DNA of 30,333 bases, taken from a virus. Shown piece by piece: positions 2,722 through 23,621 of this stretch (its first letter is position 1; every line of letters starts with the position of its first letter). Location of the stretch: the IMG/VR virus record IMGVR_UViG_3300049218_000141, positions 1 through 30,333 of that record; one strand, written 5' to 3'. The notes below the pieces were generated by a model. That model was given only the letters and a program-made list of their open reading frames with translations, did no database searches and was not told the DNA's origin. The position numbers were made by a program, and so were the translations under genes.

Positions 2722-2765
2722 ATTCTGGCGCGCTCGCCCGGCCGCGCACGCTGTTGCGCAACAGC
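2722..2765 (-). promoter_or_regulatory. candidate late promoter upstream of gp46 (palindromic activator site plus -10-like hexamer)
   Basis: The perfect 16-bp palindrome GCTGTTGCGCAACAGC occupies 2750-2765. Reading towards gp46, a CAGAAT hexamer (2727-2722) follows after 22 bp, and the gp46 ATG comes 6 bases later. The same palindrome recurs before the lysozyme and protease genes with nearly the same geometry. I infer an activator-dependent late promoter equivalent to Mu PP, with the palindrome replacing a -35 box. The gap between gp45 and gp46 is only 76 bases. The palindrome is certain; the promoter role and hexamer are inferred. Confidence 0.65.
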
Positions 2766-2791
2766 CCTCTCAGAGGCCTCTGGGAATGTGT

Positions 2792-3361
2792 TTAGGAGAC
2801 GGGCGGCCCGGTGTCGTCGCCGCCGCTCTGCACGCCGGTATGCTCATGCGTGCTGCCGACATCGACACCATTGTTCGTTAGCGTCCCGACCGTAGCGACG
2901 TTTCCATTGATCGTCACGGCAGCATTGATCGTCAACTGCGGCACGGTGATCGTGGCGGAGGTCGTGGCCGTCATCGTCAACGTCTTGGTCTTGGCGGTGA
3001 TCGAATTGCCGCCGAACAGCTCCAGCTGGCCGGCCTGGCGCGCGGAGACGCGGGTGCCGTCCGCCGCATAGAGCGTCGATTCGCCGGCGAGCTGCGCGCC
3101 GTATCGGGATGATGGATTGGCGATCGGGAGAGCCCGCAGATTGGCCGGGTCGGCGCCGATCGCGAAGACCAGGCAGAGCGCGCCGTCCAACGGAGGCACC
3201 GAGGACAGGCCAAATGGCAGCACCACCTCGACATCCGCCCGGATAGCGCCGTCATGGGTCTGCACCGTGACGGTCTGCGCCTGGCCTGTATCGTCGACGG
3301 ATTGCACGATCCCCATGCTGATCATGCCGCGGGTGTCGCGCACGAAGTCGAGCAGATCCAT
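2792..3361 (-). CDS. baseplate assembly / tail spike protein, Mu gp45 (gpV family)
   Basis: Predicted 189-residue protein of the gpV/gp45 family, the trimeric central spike that pierces the outer membrane. The N-terminal OB-fold region reads MDLLDFVRDTRGMISMGIVQ and continues to the conserved VVLPFGLSSVPPLDGALCLV. The C-terminal half is a repetitive Thr/Val/Ile beta-helix-like stretch (TLTMTATTSATITVPQLTIN). It ends in the tip motif STHEHTGVQSGGDDTGPP, which has the HxH pair that coordinates iron in known spike tips. The ATG overlaps the gpP stop (TGATG). This is the last gene before the gp46 promoter candidate. Confidence 0.93.
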   Translation of the reverse strand: MDLLDFVRDTRGMISMGIVQSVDDTGQAQTVTVQTHDGAIRADVEVVLPFGLSSVPPLDGALCLVFAIGADPANLRALPIANPSSRYGAQLAGESTLYAADGTRVSARQAGQLELFGGNSITAKTKTLTMTATTSATITVPQLTINAAVTINGNVATVGTLTNNGVDVGSTHEHTGVQSGGDDTGPPVS

Positions 3362-4629
3362 CAGCCTTGCCTCGTCGGGCCGAAGCTGCGCGGCGTGCGC
3401 CTGGTGATGTAGCGGCTGTCGCCGGCCGGTTCGTCGATGCGATCGAAAGCCGTCGGCCCGGCGAGTTCCAGATCGGTCGCCTCACCTTGCGCATTGTAGA
3501 CGTAGGACACACCCGAGATGAGCATGTCCTTATCGAGGTCGCTGTAGCCATCCGTGACACGGCTCAGCGCGTTGGGCAGCCACAGCGCGTTCGCGGTGCC
3601 GGCGCGCCAGTCCAGCACGCGGTAAGTGAGCGTCTGGCTCATGCCCTTCTGCACGCGGAGCGTCCAATCGGCCTGCTGCTGCACCGTCGCCGCGCCGGAC
3701 TGGGTGCGCACCTGGCGCACGCTCGGCCGGTATCGCGTGATCTCCGGATCGACGACATGGCCGGTCATGACCGTGCTCGTGCTCTCGGTGATCGTCGGGC
3801 CAGACGTGGGGTCGGCCGCGATCGGGCCGGAGGATGTCGCCGGCGGCGCCGTGCCGGGCGCGGCTTCGCCCGAGGGATCGAGATGCGCGTTCATGGGCGC
3901 GGTGCGTCCCTTCCGCTGCACGGTCTGGTTCGTCTGGCCCTTGACGTAGTAATCGCTGAAGCGCTGCGTCCAGTCGTACCGGTACCCACCGGACAGGATG
4001 TTGCCCGGCCGCTGCAGCGGCGCCGGCGCGCGTGTCGATCCGCCGCGCGTCAGAAGCAGGCCACCGACACCATCCGAGACCACCAGCAGCGCGTCCTGAC
4101 GCGCGGCGCGCTCGATCGCCGAGAGCGCCGTTTCGTCGACCTGGATCCCGAAGACGGGAAAGGTGCCGGTGATCGGCACATCGGCGCGCACCGATATTCC
4201 GAAGGGCTTGCAGATCGCCTGAGCAATCTGCAGCGTGTTGAGGTTGCGGTATTCGACCGGCCCATTCGGCGCGGCGGCGCAATCGACCAGGTCGCCGGTG
4301 ACATCGTAGCCCGATATATGCGCATACGCCCGCTGGCCGTCGACATTGCCCTCCGCCACGACGATCCACCCGGTCATCACCGTCGTCCCGTCGATCGCGA
4401 TCGTGCATTTCTGGCCGGCCTTGACCACCGGAAAATAGGGCGCCGGATCGAGATCGGGGAAGAAGACCTGCGCCTCCCGGCCGGAGTCTCGGTACTCGAG
4501 GTCGAACTTGCCCGAGATGTCCCTGAGGTTGCGCGAGATCGTGGCGCTGGTCCATCGCCACAGCGTCTGCCCCTCGATCGTCGCCGTGATCCGGCGCGTC
4601 GGCGCGGCAGGGATGCCGGTGCCGCTCAT
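3361..4629 (-). CDS. P: baseplate hub protein, Mu gpP (gp44) / gpD-like
   Basis: Predicted 422-residue hub protein of the Mu P / P2 D family, which forms the baseplate centre on which the spike sits. The open frame runs on upstream through the gpN gene, but the real start is the ATG at 4629 (MSGTGIPAAPTRRITATIEG), which overlaps the gpN stop as ATGA. Recognisable segments are the N-terminal ISRNLRDISGKFDLEYRD beta-barrel strand pair, GTTVMTGWIVVAEGNVDGQ, the central PVEYRNLNTLQIAQAICKPF segment, and a C-terminal ALSRVTDGYSDLDKDMLISG region. A Pro/Thr-rich linker lies around residues 240-290. Gene order N-P-gp45 is as in Mu. Confidence 0.92.
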   Translation of the reverse strand: MSGTGIPAAPTRRITATIEGQTLWRWTSATISRNLRDISGKFDLEYRDSGREAQVFFPDLDPAPYFPVVKAGQKCTIAIDGTTVMTGWIVVAEGNVDGQRAYAHISGYDVTGDLVDCAAAPNGPVEYRNLNTLQIAQAICKPFGISVRADVPITGTFPVFGIQVDETALSAIERAARQDALLVVSDGVGGLLLTRGGSTRAPAPLQRPGNILSGGYRYDWTQRFSDYYVKGQTNQTVQRKGRTAPMNAHLDPSGEAAPGTAPPATSSGPIAADPTSGPTITESTSTVMTGHVVDPEITRYRPSVRQVRTQSGAATVQQQADWTLRVQKGMSQTLTYRVLDWRAGTANALWLPNALSRVTDGYSDLDKDMLISGVSYVYNAQGEATDLELAGPTAFDRIDEPAGDSRYITRRTPRSFGPTRQG

Positions 4630-5987
4630 TGGTCCAGCACCTCGATCGCGCCCGGCGGCACCAGCGCGGGGTGACGGATCGTGTTGCGGGCGACCAGGTC
4701 GGTGTAGGTCGCGACGACATCGCCCGGATCGTCGCCGCTGACATACTGCGCGAGGATCCAGGCCGGCACCGTCCAGCGCGTGTTGATCGTCACCACCGCC
4801 GGCAGTCGCCCGATCACGCTGTTCATGTCGGCCGCCAGAGACGCCTTCAGGTCGGCCAGGCTGCGCCAAAGCGTGGCGGCAAGGGTCGGCGAGGATGAGA
4901 CGGCGCTGGCGGCCGCCGCGGCCGCGGCGTCGATCGCCGTCATGAGGATGGCTTCCTGGGCCTGCGCATCCTGCTGGCTGGCATAGGCGATGCTGCTGGC
5001 GGCCTGGACCGCATAGGCAACCGTGGCTGCCTGGAGAGATGCCGCGAGCGCCGGGCCTGGCGAGGCCGCGGAGGCGCCCGCGGCGATGGCGGGAATGGCG
5101 GCCAGCAGCGTGCTGACGGCGTCCGCGGGCGACGCCGCTGCCGCTGTCGCTGTCACCGCCGCTGTCGATCCGCCGGCCGCCACTCCTGAGGGCACAAGGG
5201 GCGTGGCCGCGGCGGTTGCCGTGACGGACCCGCCGGGCGCCACGGCGGAGGGCACAAGAGGCGTGGCCGAGGCGGCGATCGCCGCCGGCACGGCCAGCAC
5301 CGCGGCCGCCGTCGTCGTCGCCCAGCCGGCCGTGGGCGCGACGGTCGGGCTCGCGAGAGCGGCAAGGGCCGGCGCCGCCGCCGGCCCGATCTCGCCGGCG
5401 CTCGCGCTGGCCGGGATCACCCCCGCGAAGATCCCGGCGATGCTCGTCACCCAGCTCTGCGCATAGCTGAACGCGCCCAGGATCCCGACCAGGGGCGCTA
5501 TCGCGGATGCGATGAAGGTCTCGGCCGAGGCCGTCACTTCGTCGATCGAAACCGCGAGCTGGGACAGGGTATCGAGCAGCGTCGGTGCGGTGCCGGTGCT
5601 GGGCCAGAGGAAGAAGGTGCCCTCGAACCGGGCGAATCGCAGCTCCCGCTCCGAGAAGGAAATGCGTGGCGGCTGCAGATAGATGACCTGCAATGTCCCG
5701 AGCCACGGATGCACGAGCGTATAGGGGCCAGCCTCTTCAAGGGCGGCCGTGAGCGCCGCGGCCTGGGCGAGGTAGTCATCGCCGACGAGCACGCCGCGCA
5801 GCTCGATGCCGCGCGCCCCCTTCCCCAGATCCTGGTAGATCGCGTCGCCGACGCCCGGAAAGAACCATTGCTGAACGCGCCGGCCCGGCACGGTCGATGT
5901 ATCCGCCACATGGAACGGCACGCCGCTGAAGGTGGCTGTCGAGAGCTTGTCATAGAGCCCGACGATCGCGGTTGCGAAGCCGCTCAT
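4626..5987 (-). CDS. N: DNA circularisation N-terminal domain protein, Mu gpN (gp43)
   Basis: Predicted 453-residue tail/baseplate protein. Residues 1-130 (MSGFATAIVGLYDKLSTATF and onward, with FPGVGDAIYQDLGKGARGIE and YTLVHPWLGTLQVIYLQPPR) match the DNA-circulation N-terminal domain of Mu N. In Mu this structural protein joins the tail tip and enters with the DNA. About residues 135-360 are extremely Ala/Ser/Thr/Pro-rich low-complexity helix with repeated TPLVPSAVAPGGS-like units. The C-terminus (about 390-453) returns to ordinary sequence with TRWTVPAWILAQYVSGDD. Its stop overlaps the gpP start. The low-complexity middle may act as a flexible spacer; that is inference. Confidence 0.9.
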   Translation of the reverse strand: MSGFATAIVGLYDKLSTATFSGVPFHVADTSTVPGRRVQQWFFPGVGDAIYQDLGKGARGIELRGVLVGDDYLAQAAALTAALEEAGPYTLVHPWLGTLQVIYLQPPRISFSERELRFARFEGTFFLWPSTGTAPTLLDTLSQLAVSIDEVTASAETFIASAIAPLVGILGAFSYAQSWVTSIAGIFAGVIPASASAGEIGPAAAPALAALASPTVAPTAGWATTTAAAVLAVPAAIAASATPLVPSAVAPGGSVTATAAATPLVPSGVAAGGSTAAVTATAAAASPADAVSTLLAAIPAIAAGASAASPGPALAASLQAATVAYAVQAASSIAYASQQDAQAQEAILMTAIDAAAAAAASAVSSSPTLAATLWRSLADLKASLAADMNSVIGRLPAVVTINTRWTVPAWILAQYVSGDDPGDVVATYTDLVARNTIRHPALVPPGAIEVLDQ

Positions 5988-5988
5988 C

Positions 5989-8463: not shown

Positions 8464-8622
8464 TTATTCGTCCCCCCGCGCCCTGGCTCGCAGCGCCTCG
8501 TCCGCGCCGAACCAGAACGCTACGTCCATGTCGTCGAGCGCCTCGATTTCTGCCGGAGACCAGTGAAACGCCCGCGCGAAGGCGGCGAGCGCTATCGGCC
8601 AGTCCGGACCCCAGACCCGGAC
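8464..8622 (-). CDS. -1 frameshift extension of the tail assembly chaperone (GpE/T-like)
   Basis: This frame overlaps the end of the gp41-like gene in the -1 register. Entered at the slippery heptamer, it adds 52 residues (VRVWGPDWPIALAAF, then FHWSPAEIEALDDMDVAFW) after residue 136, giving a 188-residue fusion. The FHW-PxEIEAL motif is typical of the short T/E'-like proteins of tail assembly chaperones. An independent start (ATG at 8721) also lies in this frame, but no good ribosome site was noticed there. The longer fusion would bind tape measure and tube subunits at low stoichiometry. The stop directly precedes the tape measure GTG. Confidence 0.85.
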   Translation of the reverse strand, partial: VRVWGPDWPIALAAFARAFHWSPAEIEALDDMDVAFWFGADEALRARARGDE

Positions 8623-13523: not shown

Positions 13524-13937
13524 TCAGTATCCTTTCACATCGACATAGGTTTGCCCGTTGTCGATGCCGACCAGGTGGCCCACGATCCCCTCGAAACCCG
13601 AGCCGGGCACCGAGAGCGTGAGCGTGGCATCGTCCGTCGCATAAACGGGCGCGGTGATGTTGGCGGCGGTCGCGCCCGTCACCGTCAGACAATAGGTGTC
13701 GAAGGCGGCGACGATCGTGGGACCCGCGGACGCCGACGCGCTGTTGTCGAAGCCGGATTGCGCAATGCCGACGAACTTGGAAGCGCCCGCTGTCTGCAGG
13801 CGTACCAGCTGGCCGGAGGCATTCACGCAGACCAGTCCGCCGGCATAGATCTTCTCGCCGGGCGCCACGGGATAGCCGAAGGCGTCGCCGCGGCGCGGAC
13901 CGCGCCGGACGGGATTGGCGTTGGAAGTCAGCGCCAT
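13524..13937 (-). CDS. small head protein between scaffold and capsid (gp33 position; decoration-like)
   Basis: Predicted 137-residue protein with a TGATG start coupled to the protease/scaffold stop. The sequence is beta-rich with a PVAPGEKIYAGGLVCVNASG segment and SKFVGIAQSGFDNSASASAG, resembling capsid cement/decoration-type proteins (DUF2190-like style) or the gp33-like head proteins of Mu relatives. Its place immediately before the major capsid gene supports a capsid-surface role. The exact family is uncertain. Confidence 0.75.
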   Translation of the reverse strand: MALTSNANPVRRGPRRGDAFGYPVAPGEKIYAGGLVCVNASGQLVRLQTAGASKFVGIAQSGFDNSASASAGPTIVAAFDTYCLTVTGATAANITAPVYATDDATLTLSVPGSGFEGIVGHLVGIDNGQTYVDVKGY

Positions 13938-14455
13938 CAGGCAGCCCTCCCGTCAACCGCACCCATTTCGCGGCGGCGGTTCTCCAGGAACTTCTTGGGG
14001 TCGAGGCCCATCTTCGCGCAGACCGCGCGATCCTCGGCCGACATCGCCTCGATATCCCCGTCCCCGACCGGGTCCATGTCCTGCTTCGCCTTGCGGCCGC
14101 CCATGCCCGAGGCATGGATCGACGGCAGGGAATTCACCAGCTTCTCGGCCTCGGCCGGGTTGGCGACATGCTGCGCGATCAACTGGTCGCGGGCCGCGAG
14201 CACGGGCTTGCCGGCGAGGATCGCCGCGTCGATGAAAGCCACGGCCCGCGTGCGGGCGCTCTCGGACACGAGCGTGTCCAGACGGGTCTGCAACGCGATG
14301 ACCTGGTCGGACGGCACATGCGTCTGCTTGACGCGCTCCAGCTCGGCGTTGAGGCGCGTGACCTCCGCCTGGCGCGCGGTGAGCGCCGTCATGATCGCCG
14401 CCTGGTCGGATGTCTCGGCAATGCCGAGCACGGTGCAAAGCGCCTTGGTATCCAT
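13937..14455 (-). CDS. Z: nested scaffold protein (Mu Z-like), in frame inside protease gene
   Basis: An in-frame ATG at 14455 lies inside the protease gene and is preceded at five bases by the strong ribosome site GGAGAGG. It would give a separate 172-residue protein from the C-terminal half of I. That part looks like a scaffold: helical, with a heptad-rich ALTARQAEVTRLNAELERVK coiled coil, an Ala-rich helix, and a charged tail (NRRREMGAVDGRAA). In Mu, Z is likewise made by internal initiation within I and serves as internal scaffold, removed by protease. Internal initiation is inferred from the ribosome site and the family precedent. Confidence 0.75.
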   Translation of the reverse strand: MDTKALCTVLGIAETSDQAAIMTALTARQAEVTRLNAELERVKQTHVPSDQVIALQTRLDTLVSESARTRAVAFIDAAILAGKPVLAARDQLIAQHVANPAEAEKLVNSLPSIHASGMGGRKAKQDMDPVGDGDIEAMSAEDRAVCAKMGLDPKKFLENRRREMGAVDGRAA

Positions 14456-14914
14456 TGACCTCTCCGTACGCGTGTGCATGGCCTGCAGCTGGCCGAGCAG
14501 ATTGGGATTGTTCGTGAGCGCCACGCTCTTCAGGCAGGTGATCGTGCCGTCGGCTTCGTGCAGGAACACGGGCGAGACGTGGCGATAGGCCTTGTCCGTC
14601 ATCAGCGCGGCGCCGGCCTGCGTCCATTCGACATGCGCCCAGATACCGTCCGGCCGGCTATCGAGCCGATCGATCCAGCCGCGCGCCGGCGCTGAGCCAC
14701 CGATGATCGCGGCGGACTCGGTCGCGTGGTTCTCGTCGAACGGCAGCTTGCCGCCCGCGGCCGTCATGGATGCTTCGATCACGCCGGCCGGATCGGTGAG
14801 CTTGTAGGGGCCGCGCCCATCGACGCCCCGAAAAACGCCCGCCGGCACGACATGTACCCATTCGGGTGGCGCGTCGCCGGCGGGCAAGGTCAATGAGTAT
14901 GACGAAACATCCAT
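13937..14914 (-). CDS. I: prohead protease / scaffold fusion, Mu gpI (gp32)
   Basis: Predicted 325-residue protein of the Mu I family, a serine-type prohead protease with C-terminal scaffold. A longer frame reaches 14977, but those codons run through the late-promoter palindrome. I therefore choose the ATG at 14914 (MDVSSYSLTLPAGDAPPEWV), 38 bases downstream of it. Protease segments are GRGPYKLTDPAGVIEAS, LPFDENHATESAAIIGGSAP with a conserved His, ARGWIDRLDSRPDGIWAHVE, and SPVFLHEADGTITCLKSVAL with the SPVF motif near the active-site Ser. No clear ribosome site precedes the ATG. The stop is coupled to the next gene. Confidence 0.93.
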   Translation of the reverse strand: MDVSSYSLTLPAGDAPPEWVHVVPAGVFRGVDGRGPYKLTDPAGVIEASMTAAGGKLPFDENHATESAAIIGGSAPARGWIDRLDSRPDGIWAHVEWTQAGAALMTDKAYRHVSPVFLHEADGTITCLKSVALTNNPNLLGQLQAMHTRTERSMDTKALCTVLGIAETSDQAAIMTALTARQAEVTRLNAELERVKQTHVPSDQVIALQTRLDTLVSESARTRAVAFIDAAILAGKPVLAARDQLIAQHVANPAEAEKLVNSLPSIHASGMGGRKAKQDMDPVGDGDIEAMSAEDRAVCAKMGLDPKKFLENRRREMGAVDGRAA

Positions 14915-14923
14915 CGTCCGGGG

Positions 14924-14968
14924 ACAGTGGCGTGGCGAATGTGCTGTCGCATGCTGTTGCGCAACAGC
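14924..14968 (-). promoter_or_regulatory. candidate late promoter upstream of protease I (palindromic activator site plus -10-like hexamer)
   Basis: The palindrome GCTGTTGCGCAACAGC lies at 14953-14968. The ten bases after it, ATGCGACAGC, are identical to those after the lysozyme copy. A CACTGT hexamer follows 23 bp after the palindrome (14929-14924), and the protease ATG is nine bases further on. This sits where Mu has PI, in the non-coding stretch between G and I. The palindrome and its repetition are seen directly; the promoter function is inferred. Confidence 0.7.
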
Positions 14969-15026
14969 GTCGGACATTTCGCCGCCGGTGATCGCGATCT
15001 TAAGGGGAAAACCGGCTGACGCACTA

Positions 15027-15044
15027 ACCCCGATTTTCAGGGGT
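15027..15044 (-). terminator. possible hairpin between gpG and the protease promoter
   Basis: On the minus strand ACCCC and GGGGT flank the eight-base spacer TGAAAATC, giving a 5-bp GC-rich stem. It lies in the 200-base non-coding gap after gpG and before the protease promoter candidate, where a terminator for the first late block would fit. There is no strong U-run after the stem, so this may only be a weak pause or a chance hairpin. Confidence 0.3.
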
Positions 15045-15181
15045 CAGGAAGGCCCGTCCTCGCCTGCGCGGGGTCAGTGCGGAAATTGCCTGAAAAGGCG
15101 ATGGCACCCTTCTTAAGCGCTCTTATCGGTCTCTTAAAAACGAAGGGGTGACTGACGGGTGCGAAAGCGCGGCGCCAGGTG

Positions 15182-15703
15182 TCACGGCGCGGCCAAGACA
15201 CGCCCCAGGAAGCCGTTCGCGACCTTCACGATGTCGATGCGATCCTGCTCCGAGATGCCAAGATAGGGTCGCGCCGGGATGACCACGCTCCGCACGGCGA
15301 CACGCTTCAAGCCGCCGACGCCGTCGCCGAGATTGAACCGTAGCGCGCGGGCTTTCTTCGGCACGATCTTGCCGCCGAACTGATGGATGGCCGCGTAGAT
15401 CATCGGGCTGCCGATAACCAGTTCGCGCGGCCCGGTGCGGAACGTCATCGAATCCCGCAGCGCGGCGCCTTGGACCAGGATCGGCCCCGTGCGCCGGATT
15501 TCGGCATAGGCCGGGTTGAGAGCGGCCCATGGCTTGCCGTCCGGCCCCTCATTGGTCGTGAAACGCGCCACGGTGCTCTCCACCAGCTTGGCGCCGAGCA
15601 TGTCGAGCAGCGGCTCAGGGTCCTGCGCGGCCGCCGCCAGGCGCCGGAACGCGAGCTGTAGCTGGAGGTCGTCGAACTCGACCGTGAAGGACGCGCCGGC
15701 CAT
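15182..15703 (-). CDS. G: virion morphogenesis protein, Mu gpG (gp31)
   Basis: Predicted 173-residue member of the phage virion morphogenesis family (Mu G, P2 S-like tail completion type). The N-terminus ASFTVEFDDLQLQLAFRRLA fits. Then come FTTNEGPDGKPWAALNPAYA, the hallmark N..P-G-WaaL segment, IRRTGPILVQGAALRDSMTF and the YAAIHQFGGKIVPKKARA motif with its conserved H-Q-GG. The C-terminus VIPARPYLGISEQDRIDI has the PARPYLG-S signature. It acts in head-tail joining. The start is the ATG at 15703; the 124 bases upstream hold an inverted-repeat element rather than a coupled stop. Confidence 0.94.
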   Translation of the reverse strand: MAGASFTVEFDDLQLQLAFRRLAAAAQDPEPLLDMLGAKLVESTVARFTTNEGPDGKPWAALNPAYAEIRRTGPILVQGAALRDSMTFRTGPRELVIGSPMIYAAIHQFGGKIVPKKARALRFNLGDGVGGLKRVAVRSVVIPARPYLGISEQDRIDIVKVANGFLGRVLAAP

Positions 15704-15743
15704 CAGCCTGGATCTCCAAACCGCGGAAGCCTATGGTGCCGTT

Positions 15744-15838
15744 GGGTGCGCTGCGACACGGTGATACTCTGCCTGCCGTAGCACGGCCGCAAGGCCGGAG
15801 CGCATTGTGGGGTTCCGGCAGGCCCCATCAGCGCACCC
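15744..15838 (-). other. nested inverted-repeat element (putative structured RNA) between F and G
   Basis: A 10-bp perfect inverted repeat, GGGTGCGCTG/CAGCGCACCC, brackets 95 bases (15829-15838 with 15744-15753). Inside are an 8-bp perfect pair GCCTGCCG/CGGCAGGC (15816-15823 with 15771-15778) and a CGGCC-TTGC-GGCCG hairpin (15784-15797). A GGGG/CCCC hairpin (15826-15823 with 15812-15809) would expose CCTGCCG in its loop, so a pseudoknot with the downstream CGGCAGG is possible. The outer arm overlaps the last codons of the F-like gene. On the plus strand the outer repeat is followed by TTTTTT. No tRNA or known ribozyme fits. Function unknown. Confidence 0.55.
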
Positions 15839-17033
15839 GTTTTTTCCTCAATAGCGCGAGAAGATGGCCAGGCTTGCCGCAGATCGTCACCGCCGCGCGC
15901 AGCATGCGCTCCAGTCCCTTCTCTCCCACGCGGTGAACGCTGACGACATAGACCTCCTGACCATCGGCCGTGCTCTTCAGTACGGCGCGGACCACTTCGT
16001 CGGCGGCGACAGCGAATAGCCAGATCTGGCGATCACGGCTGTCGTCGAGCACGAGCTCCGGCTTGGTGATGATGCTCTCGATCGCCGCATAGACCTTGCG
16101 TTCGATCTCCGGATGCCGCGCGGCCTGTTTCTTCATCGTGGCGGCGGACAGGAGCACGCGATCGGTTCCGGCCCGCAGAGCATGCGCCAGGTGCGCGTCG
16201 ATCGCCCCGATCTGGACGGCGTCGATCGGCGAATCCAGGAAGCGGGAGAGAACGGCCGGCTCGACGGAGGTCTTCCCGGCCGGCGCCAGCACCGGCAGCG
16301 GCGCGCCCATGGGCTTGACGCGCTCGGCACGCACCGGTTGCTGGGCGCCCTCCTTCCAGGCCTTGCCTGGATTATAGGCCCAGCCCGGGTCGCACCCCGT
16401 CGGCACGCGCACGACGACTCCCGTCGTCTTGTTGATGTAGTCGCGCCATTCGAGCTTCGGCGAGGGATCGGGCCCGCTCTTTCCCATCCGGGTCAGATCG
16501 CTTTGCGAAGTTGGCGAAACGCGACACCGGCAACCCCAGCCGTTGGGCGGATAGTTCGTGTTCCAGAACGGGTCGTCGGCCCGGAGCACCAGTCCGTCCC
16601 AGGCCAGGTGCTGGAGGCGCGGATGCTGGCACGGCGTGTGGTCATATCGCCAATATGGGAACGCCTGCAGCACGGCGGGATTGGTGAGTTGGGCATAGCG
16701 TCCCGCCGCGAAGGCGGTCGATAGGTTCGTGTCGTAGATGATCCGCGCCCGCCATTGCGGGTGGCCGGTGTGCTGCCAGCCGTGCTTCGCGACGATGCGG
16801 TCGAACTCTTTCTTGAACGCGCCGAAGCCGGTGCCCTCGGCGATCGCCGTGTCGACCGCCTTACGGAAGTCGGCCACCAGCGCGTCCGAGGTCGCGCCGG
16901 CGACCGCGAAGCCCCGCGCATGCGCCTCGTCCATGAGCGCCGTCCAATGCGCGGACGGGACATTGACCTTCTGCCGGAAATAATCGATCGCCTGGTCAAA
17001 TTTCAGACCGATGGCGCTTGCTGTGCTCGGCAT
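15828..17033 (-). CDS. F: head morphogenesis protein, Mu gp30 (F) with possible C-terminal nuclease-like domain
   Basis: Predicted 401-residue protein. Residues 15-175 are the SPP1 gp7/Mu F minor head protein: NLSTAFAAGRYAQL near 103, PYWRYDHTPCQHPRLQHLAW (126-145), and the diagnostic NTNYPPNGWGCRCRVSP (158-174) with its CRC cysteines. It sits with the portal and may enter with the DNA. Residues about 180-260 are linker. Residues about 275-401 form a second domain (ALRAGTDRVLLSAATMKKQA, RHPEIERKVYAAIESI, KPELVLD, then DGQEVYVVSVHR). Its strand-helix order resembles the phage Barnase/EndoU/ColicinE5-RelE-like (PBECR) domains often fused to F-like proteins. The first assignment is strong, the second tentative. 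Confidence 0.92.
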   Translation of the reverse strand: MPSTASAIGLKFDQAIDYFRQKVNVPSAHWTALMDEAHARGFAVAGATSDALVADFRKAVDTAIAEGTGFGAFKKEFDRIVAKHGWQHTGHPQWRARIIYDTNLSTAFAAGRYAQLTNPAVLQAFPYWRYDHTPCQHPRLQHLAWDGLVLRADDPFWNTNYPPNGWGCRCRVSPTSQSDLTRMGKSGPDPSPKLEWRDYINKTTGVVVRVPTGCDPGWAYNPGKAWKEGAQQPVRAERVKPMGAPLPVLAPAGKTSVEPAVLSRFLDSPIDAVQIGAIDAHLAHALRAGTDRVLLSAATMKKQAARHPEIERKVYAAIESIITKPELVLDDSRDRQIWLFAVAADEVVRAVLKSTADGQEVYVVSVHRVGEKGLERMLRAAVTICGKPGHLLALLRKKRVR

Positions 17034-17046
17034 CGGCGCGCGCGCC

Positions 17047-18708
17047 TCAGGCCGAAGGCCGGCCTGCCGCGATCTCGTCGAGCAGCTCGGCCTGCCCGGT
17101 CAGGTGCGCGAGCGCCATGCCGGCGGCCATCGCCTGAGCGAAGGCCGCATCATCGAGCTTCAGCCCCTGCAGACGCTGCGCGAGATCGGCGAGGTCGTCG
17201 GCCTCGTCGAAGCACCGGCGCACCTGGCCTGTCAGGCCGCCGAGCGCGCCGGCCGCTTCCTGGGCGACCTTGTCGCCCAGCTCGTCGAGCAGCTGCCGCT
17301 GTTGCGCCGTATGCGCCACCAGGCGGCGGAAGACGCGGCGCTGCGCCGTCAGCATCGCCCGCGTGTCGGAGTTCGGGTTGATCTCCGGGTGCGGATTCGC
17401 CTTGATCTTGAGGTCGGCGGCCGCCAGCGGATCGCCCCCGGGACCAGCGGCACCCGGTACCGGATCAGGCGCGCCGATCACCTCGTCGCCGGCGGCGGGC
17501 TTCGTCATCTGCAGCCGCTCGCGGATCTCCTGGGCCTTCAGCTTGAGGCCGAGCGGCCCGAGATCGGCCGCCGCCGCGATCACGTCGGAAATCGGCACTT
17601 GCTCCTGGGTGCCGATGGTGACGACTGGATAGGCGACCTGCGGCCCGAAGTTGAATGCGATCATGGCCGGAATGATCTGCCGGTTGACCGATCCCGCCAA
17701 GAGGCGCGCGTCGAATTTCTCCACATCCTGCTCGGCCGCCCTGTGCTCCTGGCCGACGGCATGGCTGCCGCCGATCGCCTCGGTCCCGGCCGTGCCGCCC
17801 AGCACGAGCTTGCTGACCTCGCGATTGAGCCAGTCCATCCGGCCCTCATAGAGCTTCGAGCCTTCTGACGTGCCCTTGGCTTCGACGAACTCCATCTCCA
17901 TGCTGCGCGGTATGATGGCGGCGAGATCGCCGGAGATCTGCCGCACGGCCCGCCACAGCACGCGCTTGTCCTGATCGCTCGCCTCGGGCCCGTAGCGGCC
18001 GAGCCGCACCGGCAGCCCATACCCCTGCACGAACAGCGCCCAGTCCTTCATCGTGAAGGTCGCATACATCCACAGCCACGCCACCAGGCGCGTGATGCCG
18101 GATCGGGCCGGGCCGCCGCTCTTGGTCATATGCGCATGGACCAGGAACTTGTGCGGCGCCAGGTCGACGAAGCCCGCGTTGACGCGCAGCCAGAGCGTCT
18201 GGCCGTCTTCCCAGGACAGCTCGAAGTCGCGCTGGTTGCGCCAGAGGATGGCACTCGGCCAGATGTGGTCCGGCTCGGTTTCCCACATCAGCTCGGACGC
18301 CGAATAGCCCTTGCCGATCGCGTCGAGCACGTTGAACAGGGCGTGCTCCAGCACGCCGGTGCCCAGCCAGCGCCGCACGAAGTCGATGTGCTTGGGATCG
18401 ATCTCGACGCCCTCCGGCGCATCCACCGTGATCGGCAGCAGGCTCACCTGCCGCCGGCGCTTCGCGAGCACCGCCGTGTAGTGCGGATACAGCTCCTCGA
18501 TCTCCTCGCAGAGGATGAACCAATCCCGCGTCTGCCCATTGTCGGCCGCCATCATCAGCATGCCGAGGCGCGCGGGGTTGATGCCGAAGGCCAGGTGCCC
18601 GGCATAGGGCGGCCGGGAGCCAAACGCGGTCGGCTCCGCGATCTCCTGCTTAAGAGCGGCGATATAGGCCGGTGAGATCGGCTTTCCGAATTGATCGACC
18701 AGAGCCAT
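17047..18708 (-). CDS. portal protein, Mu gp29 (DUF935)
   Basis: Predicted 553-residue DUF935 portal protein, the dodecameric channel through which DNA enters and leaves the head. Family segments include MALVDQFGKPISPAYIAALK, the N-terminal ARLGMLMMAADNGQTRDWFI, LCEEIEELYPHYTAVLAKRR, and YSASELMWETEPDHIWPSAI with its conserved W. VRLGRYGPEASDQDKRVLWR and QVAYPVVTIGTQEQVPIS follow later. The last 130 residues are helical and may contact the terminase or F. The start is the ATG at 18708; upstream lies a short zinc-ribbon ORF nine bases away. Confidence 0.95.
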   Translation of the reverse strand: MALVDQFGKPISPAYIAALKQEIAEPTAFGSRPPYAGHLAFGINPARLGMLMMAADNGQTRDWFILCEEIEELYPHYTAVLAKRRRQVSLLPITVDAPEGVEIDPKHIDFVRRWLGTGVLEHALFNVLDAIGKGYSASELMWETEPDHIWPSAILWRNQRDFELSWEDGQTLWLRVNAGFVDLAPHKFLVHAHMTKSGGPARSGITRLVAWLWMYATFTMKDWALFVQGYGLPVRLGRYGPEASDQDKRVLWRAVRQISGDLAAIIPRSMEMEFVEAKGTSEGSKLYEGRMDWLNREVSKLVLGGTAGTEAIGGSHAVGQEHRAAEQDVEKFDARLLAGSVNRQIIPAMIAFNFGPQVAYPVVTIGTQEQVPISDVIAAAADLGPLGLKLKAQEIRERLQMTKPAAGDEVIGAPDPVPGAAGPGGDPLAAADLKIKANPHPEINPNSDTRAMLTAQRRVFRRLVAHTAQQRQLLDELGDKVAQEAAGALGGLTGQVRRCFDEADDLADLAQRLQGLKLDDAAFAQAMAAGMALAHLTGQAELLDEIAAGRPSA

Positions 18709-18717
18709 GATCGATCC

Positions 18718-18861
18718 TCAGTCGAGCGTGATGGTTTCGAGGTCGGCACTTCCGCAATGCGGGCACTCGTCCGGCTTGTCCGGCGGCGAGCCGATCCAGT
18801 CGCATTCGGTGCAGACCCACTCGACGGCCTTCGGGCGTCGATCGAGTTCACGGTCGGGCAT
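18718..18861 (-). CDS. 47-residue zinc-ribbon miniprotein
   Basis: A short ORF between the 148-residue Cys protein gene and the portal gene. It begins MPDRELDRRPKAVEWVCTEC and ends CPHCGSADLETITLD. Four cysteines in two CxxC knuckles (CTEC at 17-20, CPHC at 33-36) with W and G between them give a rubredoxin-like zinc-ribbon pattern. The start ATG at 18861 lies nine bases after the upstream stop, and the portal gene follows at nine bases. The role is unknown; it may bind DNA or protein during packaging. The motif and tight packing support a real gene. Confidence 0.7.
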   Translation of the reverse strand: MPDRELDRRPKAVEWVCTECDWIGSPPDKPDECPHCGSADLETITLD

Positions 18862-18870
18862 GGTGTTTCC

Positions 18871-19317
18871 TTATGTTCCGAACTCGGCAAGCGCCTCGCG
18901 CGCGCGTTTGCCGCCGTCGTCATGGACAGCTGAACGCGGCTCCCGCATCTGCGTCACGACATATGAGATCGCGTCCGCATACCATTCCAGCGCGCGCTTC
19001 AGGGGCGCGGCTTCAGCGCGGGCGTCGGCAACACCCCTCGCGTAGCCGCCTTCTTCCTCGCGCCGGAGGGCGCACGCGTGATCTGCCTGCATCGCCGCCA
19101 TGGCGTTCAGGATCGGCATCGTCTCGGCGCGCCACCTGGCCAGCTCCTCCTCGGCCGCGCGGAGCGCCGACAGAAGGCTGTGCTCGCCCGGGCCACGCAT
19201 CAGGCAGACAGGGGTCGCGCTTTCGTCGGCGCCGAAGTGCTGCGCGGCCAGCGCCCGTTGCCTGGCCGTGAAAGCCTCACCGCAATGGAAACAGCGCCAC
19301 AGGATGCGGTTCTTCAT
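18871..19317 (-). CDS. unknown protein with N-terminal CxxC-H-C zinc-finger-like motif and helical body
   Basis: Predicted 148-residue protein starting at the ATG at 19317, which overlaps the preceding stop as ATGA; the longer open frame upstream is rejected. Residues 9-38 contain Cys9, Cys12, His27 and Cys38 (CFHCGEAF near the start, then CLMRGPG), a plausible C2HC zinc site. Residues 45-148 are strongly helical and charged (LRAAEEELARWRAETMPILN, LRREEEGGYARGVADARAEA) and probably coiled-coil. I do not recognise the family. It sits between the terminase and portal genes, so a packaging or portal-assembly link is possible but unproven. Confidence 0.65.
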   Translation of the reverse strand: MKNRILWRCFHCGEAFTARQRALAAQHFGADESATPVCLMRGPGEHSLLSALRAAEEELARWRAETMPILNAMAAMQADHACALRREEEGGYARGVADARAEAAPLKRALEWYADAISYVVTQMREPRSAVHDDGGKRAREALAEFGT

Positions 19318-19628
19318 GGCGCGGCATCCCGCTGGTCCATCTCCGCCACGATGGGATCGGCCGGGTTGAGCGTGGGCGCGACCGTGCGCGGCAGGCGGCG
19401 GCGATAGGTCCAGGCGAGAGCCTTGATCGTCTTGACCATCGCAGGATCGGCCGGGCGCTTCAGCACGTTCATGTGCAGGTCGCACATCTCGATCGTGCGC
19501 CGATCGGGGCTCGCCTTCGGCAGCTCGACCGTCATCAGCTTCGCAACGATGAGACCAAGCAACCGCGTTTCGGTGATCCGCATGCGCTCGGCATCATCGT
19601 CCGGCTGCTCCGCGGGCTCGTAGGTCAC
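19314..19628 (-). CDS. hypothetical protein in the packaging region
   Basis: Predicted 104-residue protein read from the GTG at 19628, which overlaps the terminase stop as GTGA; its own stop overlaps the next gene as ATGA. The N-terminus is acidic (TYEPAEQPDDDAERM). The body is helical with ITETRLLGLIVAKLMTVELP, DLHMNVLKRPADPAMVKTIK and a basic RRRLPRTVAPTLNP tail. No family is recognised. The double overlaps and phage-like codon use indicate a real gene in the terminase-portal operon. Confidence 0.6.
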   Translation of the reverse strand: MTYEPAEQPDDDAERMRITETRLLGLIVAKLMTVELPKASPDRRTIEMCDLHMNVLKRPADPAMVKTIKALAWTYRRRLPRTVAPTLNPADPIVAEMDQRDAAP

Positions 19629-21205
19629 GGGTAGACCCGCCGGCCCATCGCCGGGAACACCGCGCCGCCGCCGGTATCCCGGTCATCCTCATTTTCGTCG
19701 GGCCGGTCGCGCCAGGCATTCGCCTCGAAAGGCTTGCTGTCCGCGGCCGGCACGCTCTCGTAGTCATAGACCTCCGGCTCGGCCGCGCTGGCGGCGATCG
19801 CCAGCGCCGACGCGATCGCCGAGTCGCCATGCCGGCGCTTGCCGGCCTCGCCGGTGCGCTCATCCGGCACGCGCCCGACGCCGCGGATCAGCTTCACCAG
19901 GCGGTGATCATCGAGCACCTCCCGATCGCGCGGCAGGACGATCTGGCCGTCCTCGAAGGCCGCCTTCCAGCGCGGCATGTGCTCGCGATACCAGGGCTCG
20001 TTCAGCATCACGGCCTCGATCCGGGCGCCATAGCGCTGCTGCGCGACCTCGGCGAGGTATCCGCCGTTGCCGCCGGCATCGAGCTTGCCAGACCGAAACA
20101 AGGGCAGCCGATCGACGATGTAGAAGAGCATCTGCTTCTGCGCCTCGTAGGGCGTGTTCCGCAGCTCCAGCATGAAGGGCGCGCGCTTCACCAGGTCGCG
20201 CCCGATCGCGAGCGGGCAGAACACGGAGAGGTCGCGCTTCCGGCCGAAGTCCTGGCCGAAGCAATGCGGCGCCTTCGGGTCCAGCGCCGCCAGCACCGGC
20301 GCCAGATTGGCCTCGCACCAATCCCTGATCTCGGCCTGGCGCAGATGCTCCGGCCACATCAGGAAGCCGTCGCGCGGCTCGTAGCGAAGCACGGGGATAT
20401 CGTCCCGCATGCGCGCCTCGATCACCGCCGCCGAGAGATAGGAGCCCGATCCGTTCGACGGGATGCAGAACAGCTCCTCGTCGGCCGCTGTGCCGTACTG
20501 GGCGATGATCTCCTGCCGCCATGCGGCCTCGGCCTCCGCCGACCACACCTTTCCGGTCCTCAGGCAGATGCGTCGGTAGAGTCCCTCTTCGAGCGCCTCG
20601 TCGAAGGTCGTGCGCAGCAGGTGATAGGGCCGGCGCCCCGCGCGGATGTCTTGCACCAGGACGTTGAACTGGTTGGCGTCGCCGTCATGGGTCGAGATGA
20701 TGAGCACCCGGCCGCCCCACATGAGCAGCGCCAGCGCCGCCTTCAGCACCTCGTCGAGATGCGCGTGGAAGGCCGCCTCGTCGATGATCGCGAGGCCCTG
20801 CTTGCCGCGGAAGGCGCGCGGCACGGAGGGGAGCGCCATGATCTCGAAGCCCGAGGCGAAGCCGATGCGGAAGGTCAGAATGCGCTCATCGGGCCGGGCA
20901 GGATCGACGAAGAAGCTCTCCCGCACCTCGCCGGCGGCCGGCTCCATCGTCTTGGCCCAATCGGCGCAGTAGCCGATGAACTCGCGGGCCATCTCCTGGT
21001 CGTAGCCCATATACATCACGTCCATGCCGCCCGCGGCGGCGCCGCTGGCCGCCGTCAGGACGGCGACGGCGGCGGCAGCCCAGGAATAGCCGGTGCGCCG
21101 GCTCTTCTCGGCGACGGTGACGGCGTGCTGGGACACGCTCGCCATGAGCCGCTGCTGATACGGCAGGAAGGCGTCCAGCTGCTCGAATTGCTCTTCGTCA
21201 AGCAC
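19625..21205 (-). CDS. large terminase subunit, Mu gp28
   Basis: Predicted 526-residue packaging ATPase/nuclease of the Mu gp28 family. Residues 33-42 (EKSRRTGYSW) fit the adenine-binding/Walker-A region, which is degenerate in this family. Residues 139-146 (AIIDEAAF) are the Walker B motif, and VLIISTHDGDANQF (168-181) is the coupling motif. The nuclease half includes CFGQDFGRKRDLSVFCPLAI (about 315-334), with catalytic Asp319 and Asp325 candidates, and later IVLPRDREVLDDHRLVKLI. It starts at a GTG (21205) eight bases before the DUF3486 stop, so the genes overlap. It cuts and pumps DNA through the gp29 portal. Confidence 0.95.
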   Translation of the reverse strand: MLDEEQFEQLDAFLPYQQRLMASVSQHAVTVAEKSRRTGYSWAAAAVAVLTAASGAAAGGMDVMYMGYDQEMAREFIGYCADWAKTMEPAAGEVRESFFVDPARPDERILTFRIGFASGFEIMALPSVPRAFRGKQGLAIIDEAAFHAHLDEVLKAALALLMWGGRVLIISTHDGDANQFNVLVQDIRAGRRPYHLLRTTFDEALEEGLYRRICLRTGKVWSAEAEAAWRQEIIAQYGTAADEELFCIPSNGSGSYLSAAVIEARMRDDIPVLRYEPRDGFLMWPEHLRQAEIRDWCEANLAPVLAALDPKAPHCFGQDFGRKRDLSVFCPLAIGRDLVKRAPFMLELRNTPYEAQKQMLFYIVDRLPLFRSGKLDAGGNGGYLAEVAQQRYGARIEAVMLNEPWYREHMPRWKAAFEDGQIVLPRDREVLDDHRLVKLIRGVGRVPDERTGEAGKRRHGDSAIASALAIAASAAEPEVYDYESVPAADSKPFEANAWRDRPDENEDDRDTGGGAVFPAMGRRVYP

Positions 21206-21803
21206 GGGGATTCCCCAGGCTGGCGACGCCGAAGATCTTCGCCTTGATCGCCGACACGGTCTCGCCGGTGAGGCCCTGCTCGCGTCCGACCGTCTCGACC
21301 GCGACCGCAGCGGCGGCCTTGGCCTTCGCCAGCGCCTGGCGCTCGGCTTCCGCCACGAACTCGACGTTGCTCTTGCTCGCCCGGGAAATGCTTTCGAGCG
21401 CCTTGGCCAGCATCATCATGCCCTCAGGATTGCCTGAGAGCGCCGCCAGGCCCCGCCCATCGACACCGTTGGGCGTCTCGCCGTCCTCGGCCTCGGCGGC
21501 CTTCAGGAACAGGTCCAGGATCGCCGAGTGCATCATTTCGATGTTGAGCCGGGCGGCCCGGCTCTCAGGTGCTTCGCCCAACTCGCGCACCAACGCCTCC
21601 GCCACGGCCCGCGAGCGCTTCAGCTTCTCGCCGAGGGCATCCAGCTTCTGCACATGGCGGCCGAGCGCCGAGCGGCTGACCTGGCTCTGCATATCGGCGA
21701 GGTGGGCGATGATCTCGTCGATCGTGTGCCCCTTGGCGCGCAGGGACCCGATCGCCTCACGGATCTGGGGTGGCAGCCGGTCGATCGACGACGGGCGCGG
21801 CAT
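21198..21803 (-). CDS. small terminase-like protein, Mu gp27 (DUF3486)
   Basis: Predicted 201-residue DUF3486 protein, the small-terminase position in Mu-like phages. The N-terminus is family-typical: MPRPSSIDRLPPQIREAIGS, then the helix-turn-helix-like THDEIIAHL-type segment (TIDEIIAHLADMQSQVSRSA, LGRHVQKL). The middle is helical (AEALVRELGEAPESRAARLN). The C-terminal third is Ala/Lys-rich (ALAKAKAAAAVAVETVGREQ). It probably recognises DNA and recruits the large terminase. It forms a TGATG junction with the gp26-like gene upstream and overlaps the terminase gene downstream. Confidence 0.9.
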   Translation of the reverse strand: MPRPSSIDRLPPQIREAIGSLRAKGHTIDEIIAHLADMQSQVSRSALGRHVQKLDALGEKLKRSRAVAEALVRELGEAPESRAARLNIEMMHSAILDLFLKAAEAEDGETPNGVDGRGLAALSGNPEGMMMLAKALESISRASKSNVEFVAEAERQALAKAKAAAAVAVETVGREQGLTGETVSAIKAKIFGVASLGNPRA

Positions 21804-22108
21804 CAGTCACCCGGCCCGCGGCGTGCCACGCCTTCCCAGGGGCGCCCGCGGGCGACTTCGCCCCCCAGCGTCGTCAGGGTCGCGATCCAGAGCTTGCCGC
21901 TCTCGGCGTCGATGCGCTCGACCTTGATCAGGCCGTGCTGCTCCAGGAAGCCAAGATCGCCGCGCAGGATGTCCTTCCCGGCGGCGTTACCGTAATGGCG
22001 GCAGACGGTGCCGAGGGAATGTTCGTTCAGCGTGTAGTCGATCGCCTCCTGCAGGCCGCGCAGCACGATCAGCCGCCGGTTCTCGGCCAGGATCTGCAGC
22101 ATGCTCAT
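21803..22108 (-). CDS. Mu gp26-like small protein (winged-helix-like)
   Basis: Predicted 101-residue protein in the Mu gp26 position (VpaChn25_0724-like phage proteins). The sequence LAENRRLIVLRGLQEAID and the segment AGKDILRGDLGFLEQHGLIK, followed by VERIDAESGKLWIATLT, look like a compact winged helix. The recognition helix is followed by a beta hairpin, resembling ArsR/MarR-type regulators. The ATGA junction with DUF2730 and TGATG with DUF3486 place it in the late operon. Mu gp26 has no settled function; DNA binding here is an inference from the fold pattern. Confidence 0.8.
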   Translation of the reverse strand: MSMLQILAENRRLIVLRGLQEAIDYTLNEHSLGTVCRHYGNAAGKDILRGDLGFLEQHGLIKVERIDAESGKLWIATLTTLGGEVARGRPWEGVARRGPGD

Positions 22109-22452
22109 AGCGCGCGCTTCCCGGTCAGTTCGTTTTCCAGCAGCATGTTCAGGAGATTGTTGCAGCGCTCGACGGAGTCGCGGTTGCCCTCCAGCTGGGC
22201 GTTCAGCCGGGACGCGATGGCCTCCATCGACCCGATGCGATTGGACAGCAGCTGCACATCGTCACGCGTGACCAGGCTCGCCAGGCGCGTGTCGATGCTC
22301 ACGACCTGCTCGCGCAGCGCCCGAAACTCCACATGCCCGACGAACATGTAGCGCAGCCGATACAGCCACAGGGACAGGACGCCGTTGCCGACGAGTGCCG
22401 CGACGCTGACCCACTCGGCAGCCGCCTGGAATACCGCCGAAAGCTCAAGCAT
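22105..22452 (-). CDS. DUF2730 membrane/coiled-coil protein, Mu gp25
   Basis: Predicted 115-residue DUF2730 protein. Residues 12-36 are a single membrane helix (WVSVAALVGNGVLSLWLYRL). The rest is amphipathic coiled coil (REQVVSIDTRLASLVTRDDV, SNRIGSMEAIASRLNAQLEG). This topology resembles a spanin inner-membrane subunit, but the family is simply called gp25 in Mu. The ATG follows the stop of the upstream holin-like gene directly (TGAATG). It lies in the lysis-to-packaging stretch; a lysis role is possible but unproven. Confidence 0.87.
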   Translation of the reverse strand: MLELSAVFQAAAEWVSVAALVGNGVLSLWLYRLRYMFVGHVEFRALREQVVSIDTRLASLVTRDDVQLLSNRIGSMEAIASRLNAQLEGNRDSVERCNNLLNMLLENELTGKRAL

Positions 22453-22740
22453 TCATTTCTCCACATCGGGAGACGGCGCGCCCGATTCCACCGGCGTCGC
22501 TCCGGCGGACGCCGCCGATCGACCCTGCGCGAACCGTGACCGCACGGTCAGCATGCCGAGCGATCCGGTCAAAAACGCCGTGCAGGCCGAGGCGAAGCCG
22601 AGCGCGTCGAACATCTCGTGCCTCACCAGCACCACCCACCCCTCGAAAAAGACCAGCGCGCAGCCGAGCAGGATCGACAGCACGGCCTGCTCATCGAGCC
22701 TGCCGTCATCGCCTTCGAAAAGCTCGGCTGCGCGCTTCAT
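22453..22740 (-). CDS. holin-like small membrane protein
   Basis: Predicted 95-residue protein with two hydrophobic segments, VLSILLGCALVFFEGWVVLV (about 19-38) and ALGFASACTAFLTGSLGMLT (about 46-65). They are joined by a short charged loop and followed by a soluble Ala/Ser-rich tail. Small size, two membrane helices and position between lysozyme and DUF2730 suggest a holin that lets lysozyme reach the wall. No named holin family was recognised. The start is the ATG at 22740, ten bases after the upstream stop. Confidence 0.6.
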   Translation of the reverse strand: MKRAAELFEGDDGRLDEQAVLSILLGCALVFFEGWVVLVRHEMFDALGFASACTAFLTGSLGMLTVRSRFAQGRSAASAGATPVESGAPSPDVEK

Positions 22741-22750
22741 GGATGCAGGA

Positions 22751-23029
22751 TCAGAACAGCGCTTCGAAGGCCTTGAAGGCGGCCTCGATCGCGGCGAGCA
22801 CGGAATTCGCCTTGGTCTGATCCTCGGGCGGCAGCGCGTTGATCAGCGGCGCGGCGCTGGTCACTGCGGTGGCCGTGGCATCCGCGGCGGTCTGCAGCGC
22901 CGACTTGTGGGCGCTCACGTCGTCTTCGACGGTGGTGGCCACGGCGGCGATCGTCGGCACGGCCTGCACCGCATCCGTGAGCACCTGCGTCATGGACGTG
23001 GAAGTCTGAGAAGTGGAAGTCTCGCTCAT
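22751..23029 (-). CDS. small Ala/Thr-rich helical protein in the lysis cassette
   Basis: Predicted 92-residue protein, starting at the ATG at 23029 with a GAGGACA ribosome site; the frame is open further upstream inside the lysozyme region, but that start is not credible. The N-terminus is Ser/Thr-rich (MSETSTSQTSTSMTQVLTDA). The rest is amphipathic Ala-rich helix (LQTAADATATAVTSAAPLIN, TKANSVLAAIEAAFKAFEAL). No family is recognised. It lies between lysozyme and the holin-like gene, so an accessory lysis role is possible, but nothing in the sequence proves it. Confidence 0.6.
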   Translation of the reverse strand: MSETSTSQTSTSMTQVLTDAVQAVPTIAAVATTVEDDVSAHKSALQTAADATATAVTSAAPLINALPPEDQTKANSVLAAIEAAFKAFEALF

Positions 23030-23069
23030 AGGATGTCCTCGTGGTTGCGCGGAGACCGCCGCGCGCGGA

Positions 23070-23570
23070 TCAGCCTGGCGGCGTGATGGGGACAGCTGGC
23101 GGGGTCGCATCCGGCTTGAGAAACTCGGCCTTCTCGGCGGCGCGGCGGCGGCACAATCCGGCCAGCACACGGCCGCCGGCGAGATCCCACAACTGGAACT
23201 GGTCGGCCGCGCCCTCGTAGTCGCCCGCGTTCAGCTTGCGCAGCAGCGTCGAGGCGTCGAAGGCTCCGGCGCCGACGTTGTAGATGAAATCGATCAGCGC
23301 AGCCTCTTCATCATCCGACAGAGGGACGCGCACGGCGGCCTGCACAGCCTGCAATGCGCTGCGCAAATCCCGCTCCAAGAGCTGCATCGCCTCCACTGAG
23401 GTGATGCGCTGCGTCTGCGCGGTGACGGGGCGCCCGTTCATGTCGCGCGTGCTGCCGACCCCGATCGTCCAGACCCCGGCAGGATCCCGATAGGGATGCA
23501 GAACGTAGCCCTCGGCCGGCTCGGTGAGCTGGCTCGCGGCGATGTTCAGGGCGTTGTCCGGGTCTGCCAT
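23070..23570 (-). CDS. endolysin, GH24 lysozyme (T4-lysozyme/RrrD type)
   Basis: Predicted 166-residue muramidase that cuts peptidoglycan to release progeny. The catalytic pattern is intact: Glu20 (TEPAEGYVLHPYRD), Asp29 (YRDPAG) and Thr35 (VWTIGVG). The 9- and 6-residue spacings are the same as the E11-D20-T26 triad of T4 lysozyme. Later FIYNVGAGAF and RRRAAEKAEF fit the GH24 fold. No classic signal peptide is seen, so release through a holin is expected. It is the first gene after the Mor-type activator and is preceded by a palindromic late-promoter candidate 35 bases upstream. No Shine-Dalgarno sequence is obvious. Confidence 0.95.
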   Translation of the reverse strand: MADPDNALNIAASQLTEPAEGYVLHPYRDPAGVWTIGVGSTRDMNGRPVTAQTQRITSVEAMQLLERDLRSALQAVQAAVRVPLSDDEEAALIDFIYNVGAGAFDASTLLRKLNAGDYEGAADQFQLWDLAGGRVLAGLCRRRAAEKAEFLKPDATPPAVPITPPG

Positions 23571-23576
23571 GGCCCG

Positions 23577-23621
23577 ACCATGCCGGGCGCGGAACGCTGT
23601 CGCATGCTGTTGCGCAACAGC
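23577..23621 (-). promoter_or_regulatory. candidate late promoter upstream of lysozyme (palindromic activator site plus -10-like hexamer)
   Basis: The palindrome GCTGTTGCGCAACAGC lies at 23606-23621. A CATGGT hexamer (23582-23577) follows after 23 bp, and the lysozyme ATG six bases further on. This is the Mu Plys position, directly after the Mor/C-type activator gene. The palindrome plus ten following bases are identical to those before the protease gene. An activator-dependent promoter recognised by that protein is inferred; the repeat itself is certain. Confidence 0.7.

Follow-up and report, generated by a model that had tools for sequence, protein, structure and literature searches.

A repeated palindrome at the heads of three late gene blocks

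The stretch of DNA analysed here (the window) is a complete IMG/VR virus record, 30,333 bases long, and represents a fragment of a Mu-like phage, with all of its phage genes on the minus strand. The gene order starts with a transposase (28546-30333), a MuB-like protein (27557-28549), an MT-A70 methyltransferase, a DUF3164 protein, a GcrA-like protein and GemA, continues with a Mor-family activator, lysozyme (directly after mor), packaging and portal genes and protease I, and ends with capsid and tail genes, gp45, gp46 and later baseplate genes. The GcrA-like protein (24410-25240, minus strand; PF07750, E = 8.5e-33) resembles a cell-cycle regulator and is encoded not far from the methyltransferase (26964-27554), and GANTC, the site linked to GcrA and CcrM, is depleted in the window, with 32 occurrences observed against 148 expected under a first-order model.

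The 16-bp palindrome GCTGTTGCGCAACAGC is present in exactly three perfect copies (Table 1), as reported in a preliminary description of this DNA and as seen again when the count was repeated on the whole record. The next best match carries 3 mismatches and lacks the positional context, while shuffled sequence yields a mean of 0.27 matches at up to 3 mismatches. GCTGTTGCGCAACAGC is the sole perfect 16-bp palindrome that is repeated in the window, the two others being found in a single copy each. Its copies lie on the minus strand 34 nt (gp46), 38 nt (protease I) and 35 nt (lysozyme) before the start codon, the distances given previously, and the ten bases that follow, ATGCGACAGC, are identical at lysozyme and at I, again as first described. 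A mechanical ORF list opens I at 14977, which would place the palindrome within the ORF, but the start at 14914 adopted in the earlier work is the right one, because the I proteins of relatives begin at the corresponding MDVSS. Exact GCTGTTGCGCAACAGC was also found in 15 other IMG/VR contigs, as single matches; none of these lies in a mor, lys, I or gp46 context such as that of a Mu-like late region, and they look like chance occurrences.

Table 1. Coordinates of the late-block genes, the predicted operators and the candidate promoter elements in the window
Feature	Position	Strand	Remarks
Mor-family late activator gene, 113 aa	23633..23974	-	phrog_836 late transcriptional activator, E = 1.9e-23, residues 4-111
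Operator, lysozyme block, GCTGTTGCGCAACAGC	23606..23621	-	predicted -51 to -36
ATGCGACAGC 10-bp extension, lysozyme	23596..23605	-	contains -35; half-site-like GCgACAGC recurs 10 bp on
Degenerate -35 ATGCGA, lysozyme	23600..23605	-	adjoins operator; TTGACA peak at offset 0
Candidate -10 CATGGT, lysozyme	23577..23582	-	17-bp spacer; predicted +1 = A of ATG 23570
Lysozyme, heads late block 1	23070..23570	-	PF00959, E = 2.7e-42; no Shine-Dalgarno
Operator, head block (protease I), GCTGTTGCGCAACAGC	14953..14968	-	palindrome copy, spacing
ATGCGACAGC 10-bp extension, I	14943..14952	-	same as lysozyme copy
Degenerate -35 ATGCGA, I	14947..14952	-	TTGACA peak
Candidate -10 CACTGT, I	14924..14929	-	ATG 14914 at about +4
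Protease/scaffold I, heads late block 2	13937..14914	-	PF10123, E = 5.4e-48; start by homology (MDVSS); no Shine-Dalgarno
Operator, baseplate block (gp46), GCTGTTGCGCAACAGC	2750..2765	-	palindrome copy, spacing
Degenerate -35 GTGCGC, gp46	2744..2749	-	TTGACA peak
Candidate -10 CAGAAT, gp46	2722..2727	-	one base off register (nearer); predicted +1 = A of ATG 2715
gp46 baseplate wedge, heads late block 3	2251..2715	-	PF07409, E = 4.9e-20; no Shine-Dalgarno

The same sites in related phages

Relatives of the window were found in two ways: a search with the Mor protein led to the IMG/VR record G001, and a capsid query brought up additional phages as well as prophages from Acetobacteraceae MAGs. 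An initial contig scan with a two-sequence Mor alignment had given no matches where the capsid query succeeded. More than a dozen related phages and prophages, most of them from Acetobacteraceae but with Curvibacter TJ1 and Burkholderia KS10 among them, carry a 16-bp dyad of 6-4-6 architecture at the same block heads. The word spelt by this dyad is common to the sites within one phage and different between phages. In G001, whose Mor protein is 54% identical to that of the window, a different dyad, GCTCAAAGGTTTGAGC, lies directly after mor, and 35 nt separate it from the gene that follows, an ORF in the lysozyme position. Two variants of this dyad are found upstream of I and gp46, with no further match of equal quality; the word of this phage is also given as GCTCAAnnnnTTGAGC. 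Other words are CCTAACnnnnGTTAGG in G008, GCTGACGAGCGTCAGC and variants in G009, GCTAAACTAGTTTAGC in G010, ACCGACnnGCGTCGGT and ACCGACGCGCGTCGGT in G022, GCCCGCnnnnGCGGGC in G004, G016 and G017, sequences resembling GCAACCnnnnGGTTGC in G020 and G025, and CCCTGCnnnnGCAGGG in G002, G005 and G007. Perfect sites number only three in G001 and only four in TJ1, and every one of them is at a block head. In most relatives the 4-bp centre of the dyad varies among copies.

TJ1 and KS10 resemble the window in having a Mor-family activator and dyads that head lysis, I and gp46, but their word is GGTGAAnnnnTTCACC with variants, and their lysis genes have been relocated to the opposite strand, where a site accompanies them ahead of a longer leader. 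An ATG is found 35-36 nt past the dyad at I and gp46 of TJ1 and at I of KS10. The fourth perfect operator of TJ1 (L117, 25570-25585) lies 36 nt before the ATG of a 195 aa tail-chaperone-like ORF. The annotated starts of this tail-chaperone gene (L117, 25586) and of the KS10 protease (gp28; L118, 18120) coincide with the operator, and it is likely that the true starts are instead the ATGs 36 nt past the dyad, so that both late-gene annotations probably call for correction. The KS10 paper does not describe operators, and a literature search found no operators of Mor/C activators outside Mu.

Searching upstream of lys, I and gp46 in related Mu-like prophages, as had been suggested for the palindrome, thus shows that the sites recur there, although as different words. 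It also alters one earlier claim, that the third promoter appears to have moved from P to gp46 relative to Mu. The site at gp46 stands, but it is not peculiar to this phage: the third site is found upstream of gp46 throughout the clade, with TJ1 and KS10 following the same pattern.

To quantify the agreement within phages, we scored the best 6-4-6 dyad shared by the three block-head positions and used as a control triples of regions each drawn from a different phage. The score of the window, 54, is the maximum, and 12 of 15 phages score 44-54, compared with a mean of 36.5 (sd 2.2, maximum 43, n = 348) for the cross-phage triples. The other three (G005, G021 and KS10) do not rise above the cross-phage maximum under the strict 6-4-6 model, in the case of KS10 partly because the annotated I start sits at the site. 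The rule was then fixed in writing and run, with slightly widened search regions, on 12 fresh prophages taken from a set of 397 genomes that belong to the same host family. Eight of the 12 score above 42, the 95% level of the controls, and six score above 45, the highest control value, while four do not pass the 95% level; at most sites the ATG lies 36-38 nt past the dyad. Only this set of 12 prophages is out of sample, the words and the 44 sites used below for the spacing and Shine-Dalgarno statistics having been chosen by inspection before those statistics were computed.

Promoter anatomy and the first genes of the late blocks

Across the 44 sites the distance from dyad to start codon averages 36.0 nt and falls within 33-39 nt at 42. 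When 41 sites are aligned on the dyad, the match to TTGACA peaks at offset 0 past it (z = 6.6); the match to TATAAT is best at offsets of 21-23, with a z of about 6. An offset of 23 for TATAAT gives a spacer of 17 bp and, counting from the -10 aligned in this way, the dyad occupies -51 to -36, a position that fits the site centred at about -43.5 expected for the Mor/C family. Both hexamers are weak, and a sigma-70 consensus promoter scan of the minus strand from 14000 to 24500, which spans the lysozyme and I sites, returned nothing, as expected of activator-dependent promoters.

Two readings in which the dyads play no part in initiation can be weighed at this point. In the first they would be transcription terminators or RNA hairpins that end the preceding blocks, and the lysozyme copy does lie just past the mor stop codon. 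However, no T run is present, a terminator scan of 14000-24500 returned neither of the copies in that interval, there is no Rfam match, and the position of the dyad is locked to the downstream start codon rather than to the upstream stop. On the strength of the terminator scan and the Rfam search we reject both the terminator and the structured-RNA readings, and hairpins of any such kind now seem extremely improbable. In the second the dyads would be non-regulatory boundary sequences that modular recombination has maintained or that serve in packaging, which would suit identical copies at module boundaries in this phage. This too is very improbable, since the distance to the start codons is constant with -35 and -10 features in between, and since a 4-bp centre that varies in most relatives is what is expected of the half-sites of a dimer and not of recombination homology.

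The spacing bears directly on where transcription may begin. With the start codon 33-39 nt past the dyad, the predicted +1 falls at or beside the ATG: on its A for lysozyme and gp46, and three bases upstream of it for I. Aligning the sites on the ATG reveals that positions -12 to -7 form an A+T island and that -1 is a C in 37 of 44. The first genes also have little Shine-Dalgarno pairing (median -1.5 kcal/mol). In 162 inner late genes from these phages pairing is normal, with a median of -5.65 kcal/mol (p = 9e-14 for the difference). Since the predicted +1 is at the ATG and no Shine-Dalgarno sequence is present, most late blocks should open with a leaderless mRNA. That most first genes of late blocks appear leaderless is a prediction, with strong indirect support from the spacing, the -10 and the missing Shine-Dalgarno sequences; together with the finding that operator words are private to single phages or to small groups of them, it is what the present analysis adds to the preliminary description. 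The leaderless state is not universal among late blocks. Longer leaders are seen at the lysozyme sites of G002, G005, G007, G016, G017, G022, T151a and T369, several of them with a Shine-Dalgarno sequence, which is strong in G005, G016 and G017.

The dyads might instead be Mor operators at which transcription begins elsewhere, with ordinary leaders on the first genes and an ATG spacing that reflects something else. The weak -10s would allow this, as would the few lysozyme genes with longer leaders, but it is difficult to reconcile with an A+T island locked at -12 to -7, with the C at -1 or with the lack of Shine-Dalgarno sequences. The spacing is also constant from Acetobacteraceae to Burkholderia phages and, if the activator sits near -43, the gap between operator and ATG is too small for a conventional leader. 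We therefore regard ordinary leaders as unlikely.

As in other leaderless bacterial mRNAs, the start codon lies at the predicted +1 and a Shine-Dalgarno sequence is absent. What differs is that the leaderless messages predicted here would belong to a class of activator-dependent phage promoters that combines operator, promoter and start codon into a single fixed cassette. If the prediction is true, the first cistron of most late blocks relies on leaderless initiation, late expression is tied to the state of the ribosome, and these promoters could serve as compact expression tools in Acetobacteraceae. In two of the relatives, G020 (L105) and G025 (L112), the ORF that opens at the expected distance just past mor has only ten codons (M[LF]TLSASGFL) and its stop overlaps the ATG of the next gene (TTATGACC); this may be a leaderless leader peptide coupled to the lysis gene.

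The activator and the relationship to Mu

By its match to phrog_836 the protein encoded directly before lysozyme is a member of the Mor/C activators. Against Pfam Mor it scores 20.9 bits (E = 3.6e-4), under the cut-off of 24.9, and the same family is matched in 7 of 15 relatives, at best with E = 5.9e-6. Its profile match is closer to Mu Mor (P = 9e-6) than to Mu C (P = 0.002). An AlphaFold model (pLDDT 84) places, with good confidence, a helix-turn-helix in residues 67-103 that aligns with many HTH chains. A fold search gave generic HTH matches alone; neither Mu Mor nor the solved Mor structure was among the matches listed, an absence that is uninformative. The matches from a sequence search of the PDB were all generic or spurious. 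Sequence and model together suggest two helix-helix-strand units ending in GGT-x-x-x-VP, followed by the C-terminal helix-turn-helix. Mu Mor and C show one GG..VP unit where the window protein appears to carry two.

Each relative virus record with any Mor-family match has a single one, and no regulator but the Mor-family protein accompanies the sites throughout; the two records with sites and no Mor match, G011 and G012, are short fragments. Among 12 phages, operators that are further apart tend to go with more distant Mor proteins (r = 0.35, p = 0.012), while capsid distance shows no such relationship (r = 0.00, p = 0.48), and the correlation with Mor persists when capsid distance is held constant (partial r = 0.43, p = 0.003). 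Operator distance also correlates with recognition-helix distance (r = 0.42), but we claim no recognition-helix code, since the N-terminal part of Mor correlates equally well. The some 20 natural activator/operator pairs now available could allow such a code to be derived.

That the sites are operators of a Mor/C-type activator at late promoters, as originally proposed, is supported by their recurrence in relatives, their agreement within each phage, their promoter position and their co-variation with the activator, and the proposal also held in the out-of-sample prophages. Could a different regulator bind them? The phage encodes a GcrA-like protein, the promoters are weak, and the dyads would suit many HTH dimers, so GcrA, GemA, a lysogeny repressor or a host factor might be considered. 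GcrA, however, was not found in the site-bearing records G001, G002, G004, G005, G008, G009, G016 and G017, and because of these relatives we reject the GcrA-like protein as the binder. A host factor would not need a separate word for each phage inside one host family, and the words follow Mor and not the capsid protein. A regulator other than Mor is thus quite unlikely, and the palindromes are very probably docking sites of the phage's own activator for its lysis, head and tail genes.

A close point of comparison is Mu, whose Mor protein occupies a dyad that spans -51 to -36 at Pm (centre -43.5) and makes contact with the C-terminal domains of the alpha and sigma subunits (PMC4287176). The window resembles this system in its Mor-family activator, in a 16-bp dyad predicted to lie at -51 to -36 and in poor promoter elements that need an activator (PMC4287176). 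It differs in that the Mu promoter leads to C and only then to the late genes, whereas the site after mor in the window would drive lysis directly, and in that the dyad here is a strong palindrome repeated at three heads. When the same method was applied to the Mu late promoters and to D3112, no strong shared 6-4-6 dyad at fixed spacing was detected. With the C-dependent promoters Plys, PI, PP and Pmom the window shares the principle of one activator for all late blocks and promoters at lys and I. Mu lys and I likewise share a 10-bp stretch (PMC4461284, Fig 1), which we located in the Mu sequence as TCCCGCACCT. Neither a P promoter nor a mom block is seen in the window, the third site being at gp46 both there and in relatives, and the two-step cascade from Mor to C is not seen, with one activator in place of two. 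The regulon would then work like the Mu late regulon, as a variant with one activator, gp46 as the third head and a strong private dyad.

We propose that each palindrome binds a dimer of the single Mor-family activator, which at -51 to -36, against the degenerate -35, would enable host RNA polymerase to use promoters whose -35 and -10 are each too weak by themselves. The three sites would head three late blocks (lysis and packaging; head and tail; baseplate and fibre), and transcription would start at or a few bases from the first ATG, leaving the first cistron leaderless or nearly so, with ordinary Shine-Dalgarno sites for the inner genes. The operator word would change fast between phages together with the activator, giving each phage a private late-gene switch. 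Judged from sequence comparisons, this scheme of one activator dimer, three operators, weak promoters, leaderless or near-leaderless first cistrons and private words has in our estimation a probability of roughly 0.8. We lean only slightly towards the broader view that the late promoters of single-activator Mu-like phages are a movable cassette, made up of a 6-4-6 operator, a weak -35, a 17-bp spacer, a weak -10 and a start codon at or beside +1, and that fast diversification of activator and word has given rise to orthogonal late switches within one host family. Were this true, the cassettes would amount to a library, assembled by nature, of activator/operator pairs that drive leaderless mRNAs, and each phage would be insulated from the activators of its relatives.

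For practical purposes, a simple rule suffices to find Mor/C-type operators in new genomes. By eye, Rhodobacter RC1 has no obvious shared dyad. In Pelagibaca P1 (L116), a stretch of 20-odd bp, CCCCCGAAACTGC(A/T)TCCCCGGGCA, precedes both the amidase and the I genes (upstream of 26676 and 18757, minus strand) and, though it has no clean dyad, is probably a late operator of this phage's own.
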